Below are positions 26,796 through 34,057 of a DNA stretch of 47,649 bases, piece by piece. The stretch lies in IMG/VR virus record IMGVR_UViG_3300027782_002618, positions 1 to 47,649 of that record. One strand, given 5' to 3'. The first letter of the stretch is position 1. Each line of letters starts with the position of its first letter. The translations under genes and the position numbers were made by a program. The notes under the pieces are model-generated. The model saw nothing but the letters and a program-made list of their open reading frames with translations, made no database searches and was not told the origin of the DNA. This DNA is from a virus.

Positions 26796-26817
26796 TGTCA
26801 CTCCTGTCTGTTAGTGT

Positions 26818-26846
26818 TTGATTGATTGTACCTGCTACATTTTAAT
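26818..26846 (+). promoter_or_regulatory. possible rightward promoter for the VRR-NUC gene
   Basis: TTGATT (26818-26823) and TTTAAT (26841-26846) are 17 bases apart. The site overlaps the leftward promoter, so the two transcripts could exclude one another. Confidence 0.4.
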
Positions 26847-26853
26847 TTTGCAA
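26825..26853 (-). promoter_or_regulatory. leftward promoter for the recombination operon
   Basis: On the minus strand TTGCAA (26853-26848) and TACAAT (26830-26825) are 17 bases apart, a close match to a sigma-70 promoter, 30 bases upstream of the exonuclease start. Confidence 0.55.
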
Positions 26854-26891
26854 TAGGTAGGTTAAAATATTTTTATCAGGTAGGAGACACC

Positions 26892-27179
26892 ATGAGAAGA
26901 GCCAACAGAATTGACGCTAACCAGAACAAAATCGTGGACGCACTACGGGGCGCAGGAGCCGTCGTTCGTATCGTTACGCAGGGTGATGGCATCCCTGACC
27001 TTTTAGTGGCTTACAAGGGCTATACGGTGCTTATGGAGGTCAAAGACGGTGACAAACCTCCGTCAGCAAGGAAACTAACCGAGCCGGAGCAGAAGTTCTT
27101 TGATGAATGGACAGGTGGAATGCTAGTAGTAGTTAATTCCGTAGGGGAAGCTCTTGAAATACTTAAACGCTGCGAGTAA
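26892..27179 (+). CDS. VRR-NUC domain nuclease
   Basis: AGGAG precedes the ATG at 26892. The 95-residue protein is a complete small VRR-NUC domain: QGDGIPDLL with Asp36, EVKDGD with Glu49 and Lys51, then EPEQKFFDEW. This is the stand-alone phage form, related to Holliday-junction resolvases. It likely cuts branched DNA during replication or packaging. It is alone on the right strand, followed by a strong terminator. Confidence 0.85.
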   Translation: MRRANRIDANQNKIVDALRGAGAVVRIVTQGDGIPDLLVAYKGYTVLMEVKDGDKPPSARKLTEPEQKFFDEWTGGMLVVVNSVGEALEILKRCE

Positions 27180-27242
27180 GATGATGGCATTCCAGAGGGC
27201 TGGTTGTTTTGTGAGTTGCTTTTGTCTCCTTTAGTTGGATTT

Positions 27243-27270
27243 GCGGGGTCTTCGGACTCCGCTTTTTTTT
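27243..27270 (+). terminator. intrinsic terminator
   Basis: GCGGGGTC-TTCG-GACTCCGC forms an eight-base-pair stem with a UUCG tetraloop and one wobble pair, followed by eight T. It ends the VRR-NUC transcript and insulates the RNA locus downstream. Confidence 0.9.
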
Positions 27271-27271
27271 G

Positions 27272-27294
27272 TAGAAATGATAAAAGATTTCTGC
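27272..27294 (+). promoter_or_regulatory. palindromic operator-like site, copy 1
   Basis: AGAAATGATAAAAGATTTCT is flanked by T and GC. It is the most diverged of five copies and lies 6 bases before the -35 box of the RNA promoter, a position where a bound protein could block or recruit polymerase. Confidence 0.6.
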
Positions 27295-27300
27295 GGGCTG

Positions 27301-27330
27301 TTGCAAAGCCGGAAAAGTTGTGCTTATAAT
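27301..27330 (+). promoter_or_regulatory. strong promoter of the structured RNA
   Basis: TTGCAA (27301-27306) and a perfect TATAAT (27325-27330) are 18 bases apart. The expected start is near 27337. No reading frame with a ribosome site follows for nearly 600 bases. Confidence 0.65.
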
Positions 27331-27336
27331 CCGCCC

Positions 27337-27850
27337 GTTACTGTTGCGAGTGACAATTGAGGCCACTTATGGCTATATTCCGCTTTACCTAATGCTTTCG
27401 GTCGGAGAGATATTAGGCAAGGTCGCAACCGGAATGTAGCCTTAAGTGGCTTTTTTGTTTTGAGACTGGGACTGTGCTGCGGGTTAGCGCCGCAAGCTCC
27501 TAAAGTGGACGAAATGTTTTGAAAAACACTGCTTCATGTGAGCAGTTCCAGTCTCTCCTCCTACAGTAGCCGTACTCCGAACGTTATCAAGCACCTGCAT
27601 GGGTGGCGCGGAGCAGAACACCGGCACTGGCCACACCCCCAGACAAATGCCGTCCAGCCTGTTAGCGAGGGACTGGGCAAGATAGTAGGGACATGGTGAT
27701 ACAAGACCTCTATCGACGAATCGCTACGTTCTGCGTACTCTAGGCAGGCTCCACTCAAGTGAGCTTCGCTGGGAGAGGGAGAGAGCTTCTCACCCTTGGG
27801 GAACCTATGGCTAAAACGCAACACTAGGGAAAGTCCCTAGCACCTTTTTA
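27337..27850 (+). ncRNA. candidate large structured noncoding RNA
   Basis: About 510 gene-free bases lie between a near-consensus promoter and a hairpin with a U-run. Visible helices: a 21-position stem (27362-27382 with 27430-27450, one mismatch) extended by 27383-27393 with 27412-27422; a 13-base-pair stem 27462-27474 with 27543-27555 enclosing 27476-27482/27490-27497; 27623-27630 with 27639-27651; 27652-27659 with 27670-27678. TGTTGCG (27342-27348) near the 5' end is the exact complement of CGCAACA (27817-27823) near the 3' end. Two hairpin loops share GTTAGCG. Size and layout recall ornate phage RNAs such as GOLLD and ROOL, but neither consensus is recognised. A T6 after 27450 might instead end a short RNA of about 120 bases. 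Confidence 0.65.
27824..27849 (+). terminator. terminator of the structured RNA
   Basis: CTAGGGA-AAG-TCCCTAG is a perfect seven-base-pair hairpin followed by CACC and five T. The short gap before the T-run makes it a moderate terminator. Confidence 0.6.
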
Positions 27851-27923
27851 CAACAGACGGTACAGAACGATAAAACTGTGCAATAATAATTGGAAACATA
27901 GCAGGTATAACAGGAGACAATCA

Positions 27924-28115
27924 ATGAGGTATAACGAGTCACACGGTGGAGCAAGAAAAGGTTCGGGCAGACCGGCCACACAGTTAGATGAGAGAAGGAT
28001 GTTGTCGCTTAGGGCGCAGGGATTTTCAATAGCAAACATAGCGGCAAGATTTGATGTGAAGGAACACATCATTAGGTACGCACTAGATAGGATTAAACGT
28101 GAGCAGACCAAGTAA
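27924..28115 (+). CDS. small HTH protein with AT-hook-like N-terminus
   Basis: AGGAG precedes the ATG. The 63-residue protein has GGARKGSGRP near its start, an AT-hook-like element, followed by a helix-turn-helix (RRMLSLRAQGFSIANIAARFDVKEHIIRYALDRI) of the Hin-recombinase type. It has no catalytic part, so it should bind DNA only. It is the first gene downstream of the RNA locus and may regulate this operon. Confidence 0.7.
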   Translation: MRYNESHGGARKGSGRPATQLDERRMLSLRAQGFSIANIAARFDVKEHIIRYALDRIKREQTK

Positions 28116-28407
28116 AGACACATGCCTGACGATGGCTTACTACCAGTACAGGTGTATGAACGAAGAATTCATGTGGCGTTGGCTCTTTGAGTGGGCTACG
28201 TGGGAGGACGACATGGGGTGTCATGTGGAAGGTAAGAAACTAAAGAAAAGGAAAACAGTGATGACCAAAGAACAGATAGAAAGATTCAACCAAACATTCC
28301 CCGAGTTCGACAACGTGCTTGGCAGAACGATGGTGGCTTGGGTGGAAGCTGAGGTAACTCAGCAGTTAGTGGAGCAGTTCGATGAGATCTTGGAGGATAA
28401 AAAATGA
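28099..28407 (+). CDS. small phage protein of unknown function
   Basis: A GTG at 28099, with AGGA upstream, opens a 102-residue frame overlapping the HTH gene; an internal ATG at 28132 has no ribosome site. The protein is rich in Trp, Met and acidic residues (MWRWLFEWATWEDDMG) with helical C-terminus. No family recognised. Confidence 0.55.
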   Translation: MSRPSKDTCLTMAYYQYRCMNEEFMWRWLFEWATWEDDMGCHVEGKKLKKRKTVMTKEQIERFNQTFPEFDNVLGRTMVAWVEAEVTQQLVEQFDEILEDKK

Positions 28408-28589
28408 AAGTCAGAACTATCCGCAAGAAAACCCTGACAAAACTTTGTTACAACAAAACAATTACATGGTTTCTTGCGCCAATCCTTGCGAGGGCGGCAA
28501 AGATCCAAGAACGTAACGACAGAATCAGAGCACAGGTAGACAAGATGTTTCCAGATTTGAAAGGAATTCCATGTCCGACTTGGATTTAA
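28404..28589 (+). CDS. small basic protein of unknown function
   Basis: ATGA overlap with the previous stop. The 61-residue product begins with a very basic segment (KVRTIRKKTLTKL), then a hydrophobic patch TITWFLAPILARA that might sit on a membrane, and a charged helix. Unknown function. Confidence 0.5.
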   Translation: MKVRTIRKKTLTKLCYNKTITWFLAPILARAAKIQERNDRIRAQVDKMFPDLKGIPCPTWI

Positions 28590-28774
28590 ACGTGTGGGAA
28601 AGAGCGATGGGCTGGCGCAAGCGGCAGATGGTCAAGGCTCAGATCAACGAGGTGTCAGAGAAGATACGCAACGACACCATTGAAGAGGTGGCTAAAGAGA
28701 TTGAGAAGATGACCATGTTTGGGCAGGACACCACATCAAGCTTTGCAGTTTACATAAGGGGCATGAAGCGATGA
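28571..28774 (+). CDS. small helical protein of unknown function
   Basis: The 67-residue protein starts within the previous gene (19-base overlap) and ends ATGA on the next one. It is mostly charged helix. Unknown function. Confidence 0.5.
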   Translation: MSDLDLNVWERAMGWRKRQMVKAQINEVSEKIRNDTIEEVAKEIEKMTMFGQDTTSSFAVYIRGMKR

Positions 28775-29010
28775 TTAAGTACGACGGGTATGACGAAGCC
28801 ATCCTTGGCCCTGCAATGATCTGGCGTGACAGGCAACAGGTTCAAGTGCTTGTCTATGACGCTGAAAAGATACGGGAGATTCTCATGCGGGACGGCATGG
28901 ATGCCGAGGAAGCTAGAGAGTTTATTGAATTCAACATCGAAGGCGGTTACTTGGGGGTTACGACACCCGTACTGGTATGGCCTCAAGATTTTTGGGATGA
29001 CGAAGAATGA
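28771..29010 (+). CDS. small conserved phage protein
   Basis: The 79-residue protein contains MDAEEAREFIEFNIEGGYLG...TPVLV, a pattern I have met in phage proteins of unknown role. Overlaps both neighbours by four bases. Confidence 0.6.
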   Translation: MIKYDGYDEAILGPAMIWRDRQQVQVLVYDAEKIREILMRDGMDAEEAREFIEFNIEGGYLGVTTPVLVWPQDFWDDEE

Positions 29011-29180
29011 ACGGATTTGTAGCGCAACAGTTGGTGCTTGGAAGCAAGCAGCCTTACCACCAACTCAAAGTATGTGACAAGTGTAAGGAAGAGAAGCCAC
29101 CAGAGGGAGGCATTCAGATGTCACCCAACAAGTGGCATTGTGCAAACTGCTGGACTAGAAGGGCAATAAGGAGATCGTAA
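29007..29180 (+). CDS. small zinc-ribbon protein
   Basis: The 57-residue frame has CDKC (23-26) and CANC (45-48), a typical pair of zinc knuckles around a short beta hairpin. Start overlaps the previous stop (ATGA) and stop overlaps the next start (TAATG). Likely a nucleic-acid- or protein-binding adaptor. Confidence 0.6.
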   Translation: MNGFVAQQLVLGSKQPYHQLKVCDKCKEEKPPEGGIQMSPNKWHCANCWTRRAIRRS

Positions 29181-29290
29181 TGGAAGAACTAAAAGCAAAA
29201 CTGGAATGGGAAAAACAATACAGCAAGATGTTGGAGGAGCTTATAGCCCACTACCAACGAGAGATTAACTATCTGAAAGCAAACACATGA
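29180..29290 (+). CDS. 36-residue helical peptide
   Basis: An ideal AAGGAG (29168-29173) precedes the ATG. The peptide is a single amphipathic charged helix starting MEELKAKLEWEKQYSKM. Coupled to both neighbours. Function unknown. Confidence 0.5.
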   Translation: MEELKAKLEWEKQYSKMLEELIAHYQREINYLKANT

Positions 29291-29442
29291 ACGATGCACG
29301 ACAGGCGTTTGAGTCTTACATGGCCACCAAAGGCAGAAGCATTGCTGATGCTTGGAATGGTAAGAGGTACACCAACATCAACATCAATACCAAGTGGTGT
29401 TACTTTTTAATAGGATGGACAATGAAAGGACAGGGCAAATGA
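29287..29442 (+). CDS. 51-residue protein of unknown function
   Basis: Starts ATGA over the previous stop and overlaps the ParB-like start in the same way. The tail holds a short hydrophobic patch (WCYFLIGW). Not recognised. Confidence 0.5.
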   Translation: MNDARQAFESYMATKGRSIADAWNGKRYTNININTKWCYFLIGWTMKGQGK

Positions 29443-30194
29443 AACTTAACCAACTAACTATTGATGGCGGTACGCAATCACGGGTCAAGATTATTCAAGA
29501 GGCGGTGGATGAATACGCAGAGTCGCTTGCAGGTGGTGCGAGGTTTCCTCCGGTGCTTGCGTACTACGACGGCATAAATTATTACTTGACTGACGGATAC
29601 CACCGGTACTTTGCCCACCAGAAGGCCGGCTTAAAGGACATCGAGGTAACAGTTGTTAACGGCACATTGAGGGATGCGATTCTTAGATCCTTTAGTGTGA
29701 ATGCAGAGAATGGCCGGCACAGATCTAACGAGGACAAGCGCAACGCAGTTCAGGCCATGCTTGATGACTTTGAGTGGCAGTTCTGGAACAACACCGAGAT
29801 AGCCAAGGCGTGTCGTGTGTCTGTTACTTTGGTCGAGTCAGTCCGTGGTGGCGTGAAGCCAGAGGTGGTGAAGGTTAGTCGTAATGGTAAAGTGTTTGAG
29901 CGTAAAGCTAAGTACGAGAAGCCAGATGAACCTAAGCATGACACTTCGGGTGATGTGATTAAGTCATTGGCAGATGAGAACGATAAGCTGAAGGATCGTC
30001 TGGCGGTGGCAGTTTATGCGGCTGACGAGTCGGAGAAGAAGTTAGTTGAGAACACTATCACGCAGTTGCGTGAGGATATTCGTTTGTTAGAGATCGAATT
30101 GAAGTCTACCCGTATCAGTCGGGACACATTGCTAAATGAGAATGCGGCAATGAAGAAACAAATTGCAGCGATGCAGAGACAGTTAAAGAAGTAA
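29439..30194 (+). CDS. ParB/Srx-fold protein with coiled-coil tail
   Basis: The ATG at 29439 is coupled to the preceding stop; the longer frame from 29394 would overlap that gene. Residues 1-75 form a ParB N-terminal-type domain with TDGYHRYFAHQKAG (51-64) in the nucleotide-binding box. NAENGRHRSNEDKRNAVQAML and a helix-turn-helix-like segment (TEIAKACRVSVTLVESV) follow, and the last 90 residues are a long coiled coil. ParB-like phage proteins bind DNA and may hydrolyse CTP or act as nucleases; which applies is not clear. It precedes helicase and primase genes. Confidence 0.75.
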   Translation: MKLNQLTIDGGTQSRVKIIQEAVDEYAESLAGGARFPPVLAYYDGINYYLTDGYHRYFAHQKAGLKDIEVTVVNGTLRDAILRSFSVNAENGRHRSNEDKRNAVQAMLDDFEWQFWNNTEIAKACRVSVTLVESVRGGVKPEVVKVSRNGKVFERKAKYEKPDEPKHDTSGDVIKSLADENDKLKDRLAVAVYAADESEKKLVENTITQLREDIRLLEIELKSTRISRDTLLNENAAMKKQIAAMQRQLKK

Positions 30195-30206
30195 AAGAAG
30201 CCTAAG

Positions 30207-30226
30207 CCCACAGGCTAATGTGTGGG
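30207..30226 (+). promoter_or_regulatory. intergenic hairpin before the helicase gene
   Basis: CCCACA-GGCTAATG-TGTGGG forms a six-base-pair stem just upstream of the helicase Shine-Dalgarno. AGCC at 30199-30202 can alternatively pair with GGCT in the loop, so two exclusive folds are possible. No T-run. Confidence 0.35.
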
Positions 30227-30242
30227 TAGCTGGAGAAACAAT

Positions 30243-31718
30243 ATGGGATTAGAGTTACGGCCTTATCAGAAGGCTACGCTAGAGGCATTGCGTAAGGGGT
30301 TTGCATCGGGCAAGAAAAGCCTGATGCTCTACGCCCCCACGGGTGCGGGTAAAACGGAGATGGCTATCGCTTTGCTTGAAGCCACAAAGGAGAAGGGTAA
30401 TCGGGCGGCAATGGTCTTAGACAGGATCATTCTGTGCGATCAGACCAGTCAGCGGTTAGACAAGTACAAGATTGACCACGGGGTTTTACAGTCAGGCCAC
30501 TGGCGTGATCTGCCATCGGAGAAGATACAGATCTGCTCGGCTCAGACATTGGAGAGACGCGAGGAGTTTCCCAATTTAAATCTACTCATCATTGACGAAG
30601 CCCACCAGACCCGTGCGGCAACAGTTGAATTTATCAAGAACAATCCAGAGATCAGAGTCATTGGGCTGAGTGCTACACCTTTTACCAAGGGGTTAGCCAA
30701 GGTCTATGAGGATGTGGTCTCCACTGTCACGACTCAGGAGTTGGTAGATGACAAGGTGCTTGTTCCGCTAAAAGTATTTATTGCCAAAGAAATAAACATG
30801 GAGGGGGCTAAGAAGGTGGCGGGCGAGTGGTCTCCTATAGAGACTACTAAACGAGGAATGCAGATCACAGGCGACATCGTGGTGGAGTGGGAGAAAAAGA
30901 CCAATGAGATCTTTGGTAAGCCGGCAAAGACGATTGTGTTCTGCTCCGGTGTAGCTCATGGTGCTGACTTGGCGCAGAAGTTTGGTGATCGTGGCTATAA
31001 CTTTATCAATATCAGTTATCGGGATGACGATCAGTATAAGAAGGATGTGATCGAGGAGTTCAGTAAGCCGAACACAGAGATTCAAGGGTTGATAGCTACT
31101 GACATCCTGACCAAAGGATTTGATGTGTCCGATGTGAAGATTGGGGTATCGGCTAGGCCGTTCTCTAAGTCCTTATCCTCCCACATTCAGCAGATGGGAC
31201 GGGTCATGCGTGGTCATCAAGGGAAAGACTTTGCCGTGTGGTTGGATCATTCGGGTAACTATCTTAGATTCCGCGAGGAGTGGGATGAGGTGTTCGGTGG
31301 TGGTGTTAGTGAACTAGATGACGGGGCGGAAAAGACCAAGAAAGAACCAAGCGAGAAGGAAAAAGAGTTAGCTAAGTGTCCTGCGTGTGGTGCTTTGTGG
31401 CCTTTGAATTCAGATATGTGCAAGTCATGTGGACATATCAGGCAGAGAAAGACCAAGGTCGAGGCGGTAGCGGGGGAGATGGAAGAACTCACGGGCACTA
31501 TGGCTCGCGAGAGTAAGCAGTTGTGGTGGTCGATGATGAACTGGTACATGAAATACAACGGATGGTCGAAGGGACGGGCTGCTAATGTGTACCGAGAGAA
31601 GTTCGGGGTCTGGCCTCGCGGGTTGGAAGACAATCCAGTCATGCCGGATGAGAAGGTTTCTAAGTTTGTTAAGGATGGGATTGACAGATACATCAAGTCA
31701 ATCAGGAGGATGCGGTAA
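30243..31718 (+). CDS. SF2 DNA helicase (DEAH-box) with zinc finger
   Basis: GGAG precedes the ATG at 30243 with good spacing; a GTG at 30222 is less likely. The 491-residue protein has LRPYQ (Q-motif-like), Walker A PTGAGKT (32-38), DEAH (118-121), SAT (143-145) and motif VI QMGRVMRG (about 318-325). A four-cysteine zinc site (CPAC...CKSC) follows the helicase core, then a conserved C-terminal domain (SKGRAANVYREKFGVWPRG). It resembles replicative or UvsW/RecG-type phage helicases and lies next to the primase, so I infer a role in replication. Confidence 0.88.
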   Translation: MGLELRPYQKATLEALRKGFASGKKSLMLYAPTGAGKTEMAIALLEATKEKGNRAAMVLDRIILCDQTSQRLDKYKIDHGVLQSGHWRDLPSEKIQICSAQTLERREEFPNLNLLIIDEAHQTRAATVEFIKNNPEIRVIGLSATPFTKGLAKVYEDVVSTVTTQELVDDKVLVPLKVFIAKEINMEGAKKVAGEWSPIETTKRGMQITGDIVVEWEKKTNEIFGKPAKTIVFCSGVAHGADLAQKFGDRGYNFINISYRDDDQYKKDVIEEFSKPNTEIQGLIATDILTKGFDVSDVKIGVSARPFSKSLSSHIQQMGRVMRGHQGKDFAVWLDHSGNYLRFREEWDEVFGGGVSELDDGAEKTKKEPSEKEKELAKCPACGALWPLNSDMCKSCGHIRQRKTKVEAVAGEMEELTGTMARESKQLWWSMMNWYMKYNGWSKGRAANVYREKFGVWPRGLEDNPVMPDEKVSKFVKDGIDRYIKSIRRMR

Positions 31719-32542
31719 TGGAATTCATTTCATTTTGTCGTGCTCATGGGGTATTGATCGACATCCCTCCACCGATAGGAGTTTGGAGGAGATACCCAAC
31801 GGATGACCACCCAAAGAAAAGAAACGGGGCGGTCAAGTTCATGGGAGATCACGGGTTTGTGCAGAACCATGCGGTCGATACAGAGGTATCTGTGTGGCAA
31901 CCGGAGACACCGATCAAGGTTGATAGAAAGAAGATTGCCAAGGATTTACAGGCGGTTGAGGAAAAGAGGCGGGCGGATCAGGCGGATGCAGTTAAACGGG
32001 CTGCTTTTATCCTGAGTCAGACAGTCATAGGTAAGCATGCGTACCTAGACAAGAAAGGTTTTATAGGCGCAGAGGACATGGTGTGGGGGCATGAAGGTAA
32101 GAGGACGATGGTTGTACCCATGCGGGTGGATGGACACCTTGTCGGATGTCAGCTAATCGAGGAGGACGGATCTAAGAAGTTTTTGTATGGTCAGCGCACC
32201 AGTAATGCCGAGTTGGTCATGGACAATAAAGGAATTCATATTCTTTGTGAAGGTTACGCCACGGGTCTGTCTATCCAAGAGGCTTTTAAGAAGATGAGCC
32301 GGAGGTACACGATCCATGTATGTTTTAGCGCGGGGAATATGAAGAAGGTGGCGCAGGGCTTACCGGATGGACTCATTGTTGCGGATAACGATAAAAGCAA
32401 GACGGGGGAGCGGGTCGCAAAGGAGATCGGATGGCCTTACTGGATGAGCGATGTCGAGGGAGAGGACGCTAACGACACTCACCAAAGGATAGGCGTTCTC
32501 CGGTTTGGATTAAGCCTAGTGCGCTCATTGAACTTGGTCTGA
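31718..32542 (+). CDS. TOPRIM-domain DNA primase
   Basis: Starts TAATG-coupled to the helicase. Of 274 residues, about 128-240 hold a TOPRIM fold: ILCEGYATG with Glu178 and GLIVADND with Asp223 and Asp225. The N-terminal part (FISFCRAHGVLID, then GDHGFVQN) resembles the region before TOPRIM in phage primases, without a visible zinc knuckle. It would make RNA primers; no DNA polymerase gene is in the window, suggesting use of the host polymerase. Confidence 0.8.
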   Translation: MEFISFCRAHGVLIDIPPPIGVWRRYPTDDHPKKRNGAVKFMGDHGFVQNHAVDTEVSVWQPETPIKVDRKKIAKDLQAVEEKRRADQADAVKRAAFILSQTVIGKHAYLDKKGFIGAEDMVWGHEGKRTMVVPMRVDGHLVGCQLIEEDGSKKFLYGQRTSNAELVMDNKGIHILCEGYATGLSIQEAFKKMSRRYTIHVCFSAGNMKKVAQGLPDGLIVADNDKSKTGERVAKEIGWPYWMSDVEGEDANDTHQRIGVLRFGLSLVRSLNLV

Positions 32543-33403: not shown

Positions 33404-33567
33404 CAATCGTCTGTGTCTGTGTTTAGTTCAACAAATGGATACTGCTCGTCATGAATGAATGCGTCATCTACCATTGAAATACCCATGCGGTTTCCTGCGT
33501 CCCAAATCAAAACATCTAGGTGCGGGGGTAGTTCGCTCAGGTGGGCGATTAGTTCAGATACTTTCAT
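33403..33567 (-). CDS. 54-residue protein of unknown function
   Basis: Begins MKVSELIAHLSELPPHLDVLIWDAG, a pattern seen in small phage proteins of unknown role (helix, then strand with a conserved D). ATGA coupling to the previous stop. Stops 12 bases before the next start. Confidence 0.6.
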   Translation of the reverse strand: MKVSELIAHLSELPPHLDVLIWDAGNRMGISMVDDAFIHDEQYPFVELNTDTDD

Positions 33568-33773
33568 ACTTTTTCCTTTCGCTTCGCAGCTTTTTTATTA
33601 ACTATTTTGACGATCTCATTCTCTAACTGAGGGACGATTGGGTGGTGGTGGTAGTTGGTTATGAGTGCCATACCCAAAGCCCACATGAGGTCATCCTCGT
33701 TAAGCATGAAACCCTCGGCATCGTGGAACAGTTCTTCAAAGTTAACTGTGATTAGTCGTGGGTGATAGATCAT
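33564..33773 (-). CDS. 69-residue protein of unknown function
   Basis: Begins MIYHPRLITVNFEELFHDAEGF and ends in a lysine-rich tail. Start from an exact copy of the shared module. Unknown function. Confidence 0.55.
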   Translation of the reverse strand: MIYHPRLITVNFEELFHDAEGFMLNEDDLMWALGMALITNYHHHPIVPQLENEIVKIVNKKAAKRKEKV

Positions 33774-33786
33774 CGGATGGTCTCCT
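33770..33786 (-). repeat. shared start module, exact copy
   Basis: Starts the 33564-33773 gene; upstream codons read QETIR and stop. Confidence 0.8.
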
Positions 33787-34057
33787 GAATGTATTGTTTG
33801 GCTTCTTCCTTGGTATCAAAGCATCGGTAATCTCCGTTCTCATCAATCCACTCATCGCAAGCCTTGCCAAAGATGACCCATACGTCACCTACTCTTTCAG
33901 TCTCCCAACAGTTCGGGTCGTTGAATCTCTCCATGTAAAGCTCATGCACAATCTTTTTGCAAGTCGTGTCATCTACGCCAGTAAGTCGCTCAAGTTCTGC
34001 CGGATGGTTCTCTACTAAAAGATCGCTAATCTGTGCCTTTAGTTCTGCGTGGTTCAT
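33770..34057 (-). CDS. 95-residue protein of unknown function
   Basis: Helical N-terminus, then a beta-rich middle (GDVWVIFGKACDEWIDENGDYRCFDTKEEA). The C-terminus QETIR is encoded by the bases that form the next gene's ribosome site. Unknown function. Confidence 0.55.
   Translation of the reverse strand: MNHAELKAQISDLLVENHPAELERLTGVDDTTCKKIVHELYMERFNDPNCWETERVGDVWVIFGKACDEWIDENGDYRCFDTKEEAKQYIQETIR

Follow-up and report, generated by a model that had tools for sequence, protein, structure and literature searches.

A modular family of structured phage RNAs, about 500 nucleotides long, predicted at the head of early operons

Large structured RNAs known from phages are few, and what they do is an open question. 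Two of them, GOLLD and ROOL, assemble into cages made of RNA only (PMC12286853). Lengths above 800 nt are common among GOLLD RNAs, and GOLLD has been described shortly after a tRNA (PMC12286853). ROOL, an octameric RNA nanocage of phage or prophage origin, has a complex pseudoknotted fold with conserved kissing loops (PMC12286853). OLE, an ornate RNA of ~600 nt whose biochemical function is unsettled (PMC12054373, PMC12286853), belongs to bacteria (Bacillota), not to phages. Much simpler is put of phage HK022, an antiterminator of ~70 nt composed of two stem-loops, located just downstream of an early promoter and needing no phage protein (PMC9378689). Our present results describe a phage locus which, judging from its sequence and that of its relatives, almost certainly encodes a new family of structured RNA, ~500 nt in length (27337-27850). 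By the tests made, this RNA is a member of none of these groups; it resembles GOLLD, ROOL and OLE in complexity and put in placement.

The window, i.e. the whole stretch of 47,649 bases that was analyzed, comes from a virus record and carries genes typical of a tailed phage, coding for terminase, portal, major head protein, endolysin and Erf, together with exonuclease, VRR-NUC-like nuclease, ParB-like protein, DEAD-box helicase and primase. Ten window proteins, the ParB-like one included, gave no match in Pfam, and neither an integrase nor a clear repressor was present among the window proteins scanned. About 740 bases separate the end of the nuclease gene (26892-27179) from the first ORF of a rightward operon (27924), and they contain a terminator, a promoter-like site and a block folding far better than shuffled sequences. 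The upstream nuclease unit is closed by an intrinsic terminator (27243-27270, +) with an 8-bp stem (27243-27262) followed by T8. Next comes a sigma70-like promoter, TTGCAA-18-TATAAT (27301-27330, +), with 10 of 12 consensus matches. The co-directional operon downstream of the block (27924-32542, +) encodes small ORFs, the ParB-like protein (29394), the DEAD-box helicase (30222) and the primase (31718). The promoter, the bounding terminator and the position between nuclease gene and replication operon had all been proposed in an earlier sequence-only reading, and they are confirmed here. The hairpin plus T5 with which that reading ended the RNA is also present (27824-27849, +), but as a terminator it is weak, because a 4-nt gap (CACC) separates the hairpin CTAGGGA/TCCCTAG (27824-27840) from T5; it is common to the close relatives L010, L011, L074 and L082. 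On the other side of the nuclease gene, a divergent intergenic region with promoter-like sites (26802-26891) lies between this rightward gene and the leftward exonuclease operon.

The RNA predicted from the window has a minimum free energy of -202.5 kcal/mol, whereas dinucleotide shuffles average -166.5 +/- 6.1 kcal/mol (z = -5.9) and none of 100 reaches so low a value; the many long helices noticed earlier are real. The supposed absence of a gene was borne out as well: there is no supported gene within 27180-27923, where two antisense ORFs are listed (27163-27366 and 27561-27824), and no reading frame is conserved in the core of the RNA: any one frame stays open in at most 19 of the 76 homologous sequences. 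Distances inside the cores are not confined to multiples of three but fall into all three residues modulo 3.

A 22-mer from the block retrieved nine other IMG/VR contigs, and two further patterns added more. In nearly all of these near homologues the similarity starts at 27337, 7 nt past the -10 box, and extends to ~27573, beyond which they split into different sequence types. On contigs long enough to show it, the block stands ahead of a similar operon with small ORFs, ParB-like protein, helicase and primase.

The shared 5' module begins at the predicted +1 with the hairpin P1 (27337-27354, +; GTTACT/AGTGAC), followed by the long hairpin P2-P3-P4 (27362-27450, +), built of helices 27362-27369/27443-27450, 27371-27382/27430-27441 and 27388-27393/27412-27417. 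Right after P2 there is a U6 tract (27451-27456, +), an internal terminator-like feature present in nearly all homologue sequences inspected. The 7-nt loop of P1, GUUGCGA (27343-27349, +), pairs with a UCGCAAC bulge on the 3' side of P4 (27423-27429, +) within the U-tract hairpin. This kissing interaction, PK1, stays complementary although its sequence differs in almost every homologue family: alleles elsewhere include GUAGUGA/UCACUAC, GUCGGAG/CUCCGAC, GUAGGAA/UUCCUAC, GUGAGAA/UUCUCAC, GUCGUGG/CCACGAC, GUGAGAG/CUCUCAC and GUGGAAA/UUUCCAC, with L113 among the loci providing them. Eleven sequences, chosen by module or core homology and not by pairing, were hand-trimmed from full sequences to the two helices; 93.9% of their cells pair, compared with 26-47% in slid controls, and double-sided changes occur at five of the seven PK1 pairs. 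The sole unpaired PK1 row, L097, was placed out of register by the aligner. Divergent PK1 homologues came from contigs found via their helicase. The single-sequence minimum-energy fold, which pairs 27342-27348 with 27817-27823, is judged partly wrong because the P1 loop covaries with 27423-27429, its conserved partner, and that long-range pairing was rejected.

A full descriptor of the 5' module (P1, PK1, P2 and U-tract) is matched upstream of 48 of 73 distinct cores versus 2 of 219 mononucleotide-shuffled sequences; chance or odd placement may account for a few of these 48, and true cases, the window included, are missed when the stem that is scored does not adjoin the U-tract. A version without the U-tract requirement was dropped as too loose (62 of 365 shuffles positive) and the stricter form was used. 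The internal loop of P2, UAUGG/CCUUAAG (27362-27375/27438-27450), may be similar to the 11-nt GAAA-tetraloop receptor; L011 has lost this loop, and at the same place other relatives carry ACGCAUGGG/CCCAGCCGU or ACACAUGCG/CGCAGUUGU.

The 3' part of the RNA is occupied in the window by a core of ~250 nt (27564-27815, +), called type A, which has relatives in distant phages. Its first portion (27564-27746, +) consists of helices and two pseudoknots, one of them formed by UAGCGA (27663-27668) and UCGCUA (27721-27726); the second (27747-27815, +) contains a variable hairpin and the conserved end CACCCUUGGGGAACCUAUGGC. The motif CCTGTYAGYGAGGGAYKG is present in at least 119 IMG/VR stretches and the core 3' motif in 72 of 77. 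Once chance matches are removed, the core is carried by at least ~115 loci, with ~95 distinct sequences among the matches listed. RNAalifold predicted 27 core pairs, 22 of them with double-sided changes, and two pseudoknot helices and single pairs were added to this set. The resulting 38 pairs, pseudoknots included, are formed in 98.3% of 2713 cells from 72 distinct sequences, compared with 76.4% in shuffles and 32-42% when the structure is slid; the figure for the added pairs is partly selected, because they were picked on the same alignment, but the main helices stand without it. Twenty-six of the 38 pairs change on both sides, and the covariation score is 0.595 versus 0.179, with 0 of 500 shuffles as high. 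Compensatory changes, to be sought according to the sequence-only reading, are thus abundant among the homologues. A covariance model of the core, R1, scores 152 bits (E 5e-43) on the window, a value that is not independent because the window is in the alignment of the model. R1 separates full or end-cut members, scoring at least ~106 bits (72 bits for a GenBank relative), from motif matches in GTDB genomes (at most 17 bits).

The same data bear on the idea that the block is an element acting as DNA (a packaging or recombination site or an origin of replication), with inverted repeats that only look like RNA helices. Such an element could be expected next to replication genes, with strong inverted repeats and frequent recombination, all of which are seen at this locus. 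The alignment, however, keeps G-U pairs in one strand orientation (U-G at columns 116-125 in 72 of 72 sequences, G-U at columns 137-179 in 25), together with complex pseudoknots and conserved unpaired positions; the promoter position is conserved, and some loci lie away from replication genes. We therefore regard a DNA-level element as scarcely credible.

As for identity, the sequence-only reading had offered either a GOLLD- or ROOL-type RNA or a new class, and it is the second half of that proposal which stands. At Rfam gathering scores no covariance model, GOLLD and ROOL included, matched the window or its relatives, and at E values up to 5 with permissive filters only chance terminator-like or miRNA-like matches appeared, with no GOLLD, ROOL or OLE among them. 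Because Rfam matches are lacking, compensatory changes are abundant and no frame is conserved, we consider this a new RNA family and not GOLLD or ROOL. Like GOLLD, it is a large phage RNA with pseudoknots, with one conserved and one variable part, and near tRNAs in some phages. In GOLLD, however, the 3' region is conserved and the 5' region less so, whereas here the 5' architecture is kept and the 3' slot holds the unrelated cores A, C, E and F; the present RNA is also shorter. GOLLD often lies near tRNA islands, and the present RNA does not: there is no tRNA in the window, and only one of 20 related loci scanned has any. In this exception, L105, a tRNA-Met gene (2287-2361) ends ~50 nt before the RNA, as for one GOLLD (PMC12286853).

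With ROOL the RNA shares phage or prophage origin, a complex pseudoknotted fold and kissing loops, but it heads an early operon, and its kissing loop is local (P1 loop with P2 bulge). OLE is comparably ornate, but bacterial, and its model does not match here. What it has in common with put is that a structured RNA opens an early phage transcript and that no protein partner is evident; the present RNA differs by its size, its pseudoknots, its internal terminator-like hairpin and its large core. A GOLLD, ROOL or OLE member overlooked by the Rfam models would likewise be large, pseudoknotted and phage-borne, and the tRNA-Met of L105 would suit it. The lack of matches even under permissive filters, a length of ~500 nt against more than 800 nt for many GOLLD RNAs (PMC12286853) and tRNAs in one of 20 loci make this highly improbable.

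The family shows strong covariation and is found in more than 100 environmental phage fragments, and sequenced isolates hardly ever have it. A blastn search with the window RNA had no match in 50,697 GenBank phage records. Concatenated modules and cores gave a sole match in the same records, MW202484.1, a circular environmental podovirus whose 5' module has yet another PK1 allele, GUAACGG/CCGUUAC. A coding sequence for a hypothetical protein, UOF77725.1, overlies the core of this member (33533-33892; L269 3907-4266), and it is probably not a real gene. No GTDB genome matched a 26-mer taken from the 5' module. The 27 GTDB matches to the core motif were rejected as chance, scoring at most 17 bits with the core model or going unreported, and matches to the 16-mer GGCAAGGTCGCAACCG were mostly chance too. 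No description of the RNA was found in the open-licence literature searched, which yielded work on GOLLD, ROOL and OLE or papers on unrelated subjects.

Comparison of related phages revealed that parts of the RNA are exchanged independently of their surroundings. L011 is 94-96% identical to the window in the exonuclease, ParB-like and helicase genes and 97% identical in the 5' module, and its core is unrelated. In L074, with flanks 81-92% identical, the 5' module is unrelated and the core 97% identical. L071 (flanks 88-96%) has neither module in common with the window apart from the hairpin H2, described below. L002, L003, L004 and L012, on the other hand, are only 66-70% identical to the window in genes, where alignable, yet 95-97% in their 5' modules. 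Cores C, D, E and F are treated as separate from type A because R1 detects weak or no similarity in them. Three of them fold in their own right: C, E and F have 35, 13 and 9 compensatory pairs against column-shuffled means of 11.4, 2.5 and 4.1. From the module swaps and the folding of these cores we infer that the locus is a slot which keeps the architecture of the 5' module constant while several structured cores alternate behind it.

That near-identical phages exchange cores and 5' modules so rapidly suggests a variable partner, and we conjecture that the RNA recognizes, or hides from, a host factor, a defence system or a rival phage. The fuller version, in which a kissing-loop 5' module and recombination-swapped pseudoknotted cores would provide RNA-set specificity against host defence or rival phages, we consider unlikely. 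If true, the slot would do with RNA what exchangeable immunity or tail cassettes do with protein.

A narrower alternative is recognition between phages, where the short P1-P2 RNA, terminated at the U-tract, would pair by its 7-nt loop or its bulge with the corresponding sites in the leader of a rival and shut it off, PK1 alleles being specificity groups. Phage P4, whose CI immunity RNA lies in the leader of the replication operon, offers an analogy. One short transcript would hold both complementary strands, and PK1 alleles differ between phages with ~90-96% identical flanks while recurring in distant ones. Intramolecular pairing would nevertheless compete with pairing in trans, the conserved cores would be left unexplained, and a lysogenic state is not evident, since the proteins scanned include neither an integrase nor a clear repressor; the missing integrase is why lysogenic immunity was down-weighted as a main explanation. 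We rate recognition of this kind as quite improbable.

On balance we lean towards a new modular phage RNA of ~500 nt that acts as a folded standalone molecule; that it does so in trans we propose more tentatively. According to this proposal, host RNA polymerase would start at ~27337, and P1 and P2 would fold first and be locked by PK1. Part of the transcripts would probably end near 27456, since P2 ends in a U-tract, giving an RNA of ~120 nt, and such partial termination would make PK1 a control point. The remaining transcripts would run through the core and, in the window phage, stop near 27849. The folded core would then act early in infection as RNA and not as a message. Strong termination at the U-tract hairpin ahead of the core would starve the core, which counts against this explanation, as does the weakness of the 3' terminator in the window.

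The main alternative is a cis-acting leader of the early operon, with P2 and the U-tract as an attenuator under the control of P1 and PK1 and with the core modifying RNA polymerase for put-like processive antitermination, by which long operons would be transcribed past terminators. By analogy with put, which acts without a phage protein just after an early promoter (PMC9378689), this is possible but less probable. A promoter with at least 9 of 12 matches precedes P1 in the same region in 21 of 43 testable homologues (controls 1.4%), the RNA begins at its predicted +1, and the terminator-like P2-U feature is conserved. Among core loci with enough sequence, a ParB-like gene lies downstream in 45 of 64 and a helicase gene in 36 of 64, always on the same strand. 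In the gap that follows the RNA, up to the first gene, many relatives show no evident promoter or terminator, which is what makes the leader reading possible. Downstream gene sets differ among loci (replication genes, terminase, PAPS reductase), as expected of a general operon leader; this also favours a standalone RNA. In 29 of 110 homologues (controls 1.5%) another promoter, a strong one, follows the RNA and precedes the first gene; it fits a unit distinct from the operon and would bypass a leader, and a terminator follows the core in the window and its close relatives. Moreover, the core could not act on P2-U, which is transcribed earlier, and put has ~70 nt and two stem-loops (PMC9378689) against ~500 nt with pseudoknots here. 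Standalone RNA, perhaps controlled at its internal terminator-like hairpin, is therefore somewhat favoured over a put-like operon leader. The exchangeable modules and the natural series of alleles are ready constructs for testing what such RNAs do.

In L002, L003 and L004, a promoter-like TTGACA-18-TATATT between the RNA and the first ORF overlaps a near-palindrome, ATGAACAATTCAT, which is perhaps an operator for the early operon.

Between the U-tract and the core of the window there is an optional hairpin, H2 (27462-27555, +), with outer stem GAGACTGG/CCAGTCTC and inner motifs GGGUUAGCGCC (27481-27491) and ACACUGCUUCAUGUG (27526-27540). The H2 motifs recur in some relatives in a second structured unit just upstream of the RNA promoter (L002, L003, L007, L010 and L113). 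This unit starts with a CAACACGCATGGGGATTG...CCCAGCCGTGTTGG hairpin, a similar one being present in L112, and continues with an H2-like hairpin that has the same GGGTTAGCGCC and ACACTGCTTCATGTG motifs but another outer stem, GTTGGTGG/CCACCAAC, and is frequently accompanied by a T-run. By its layout the second unit looks like a duplicated P2-H2 module. GUUAGCG is found both in the H2 loop (27481-27491) and in the core strand 27661-27668 that pairs with AAUCGCUAC, so that H2 could mimic this strand of the core.
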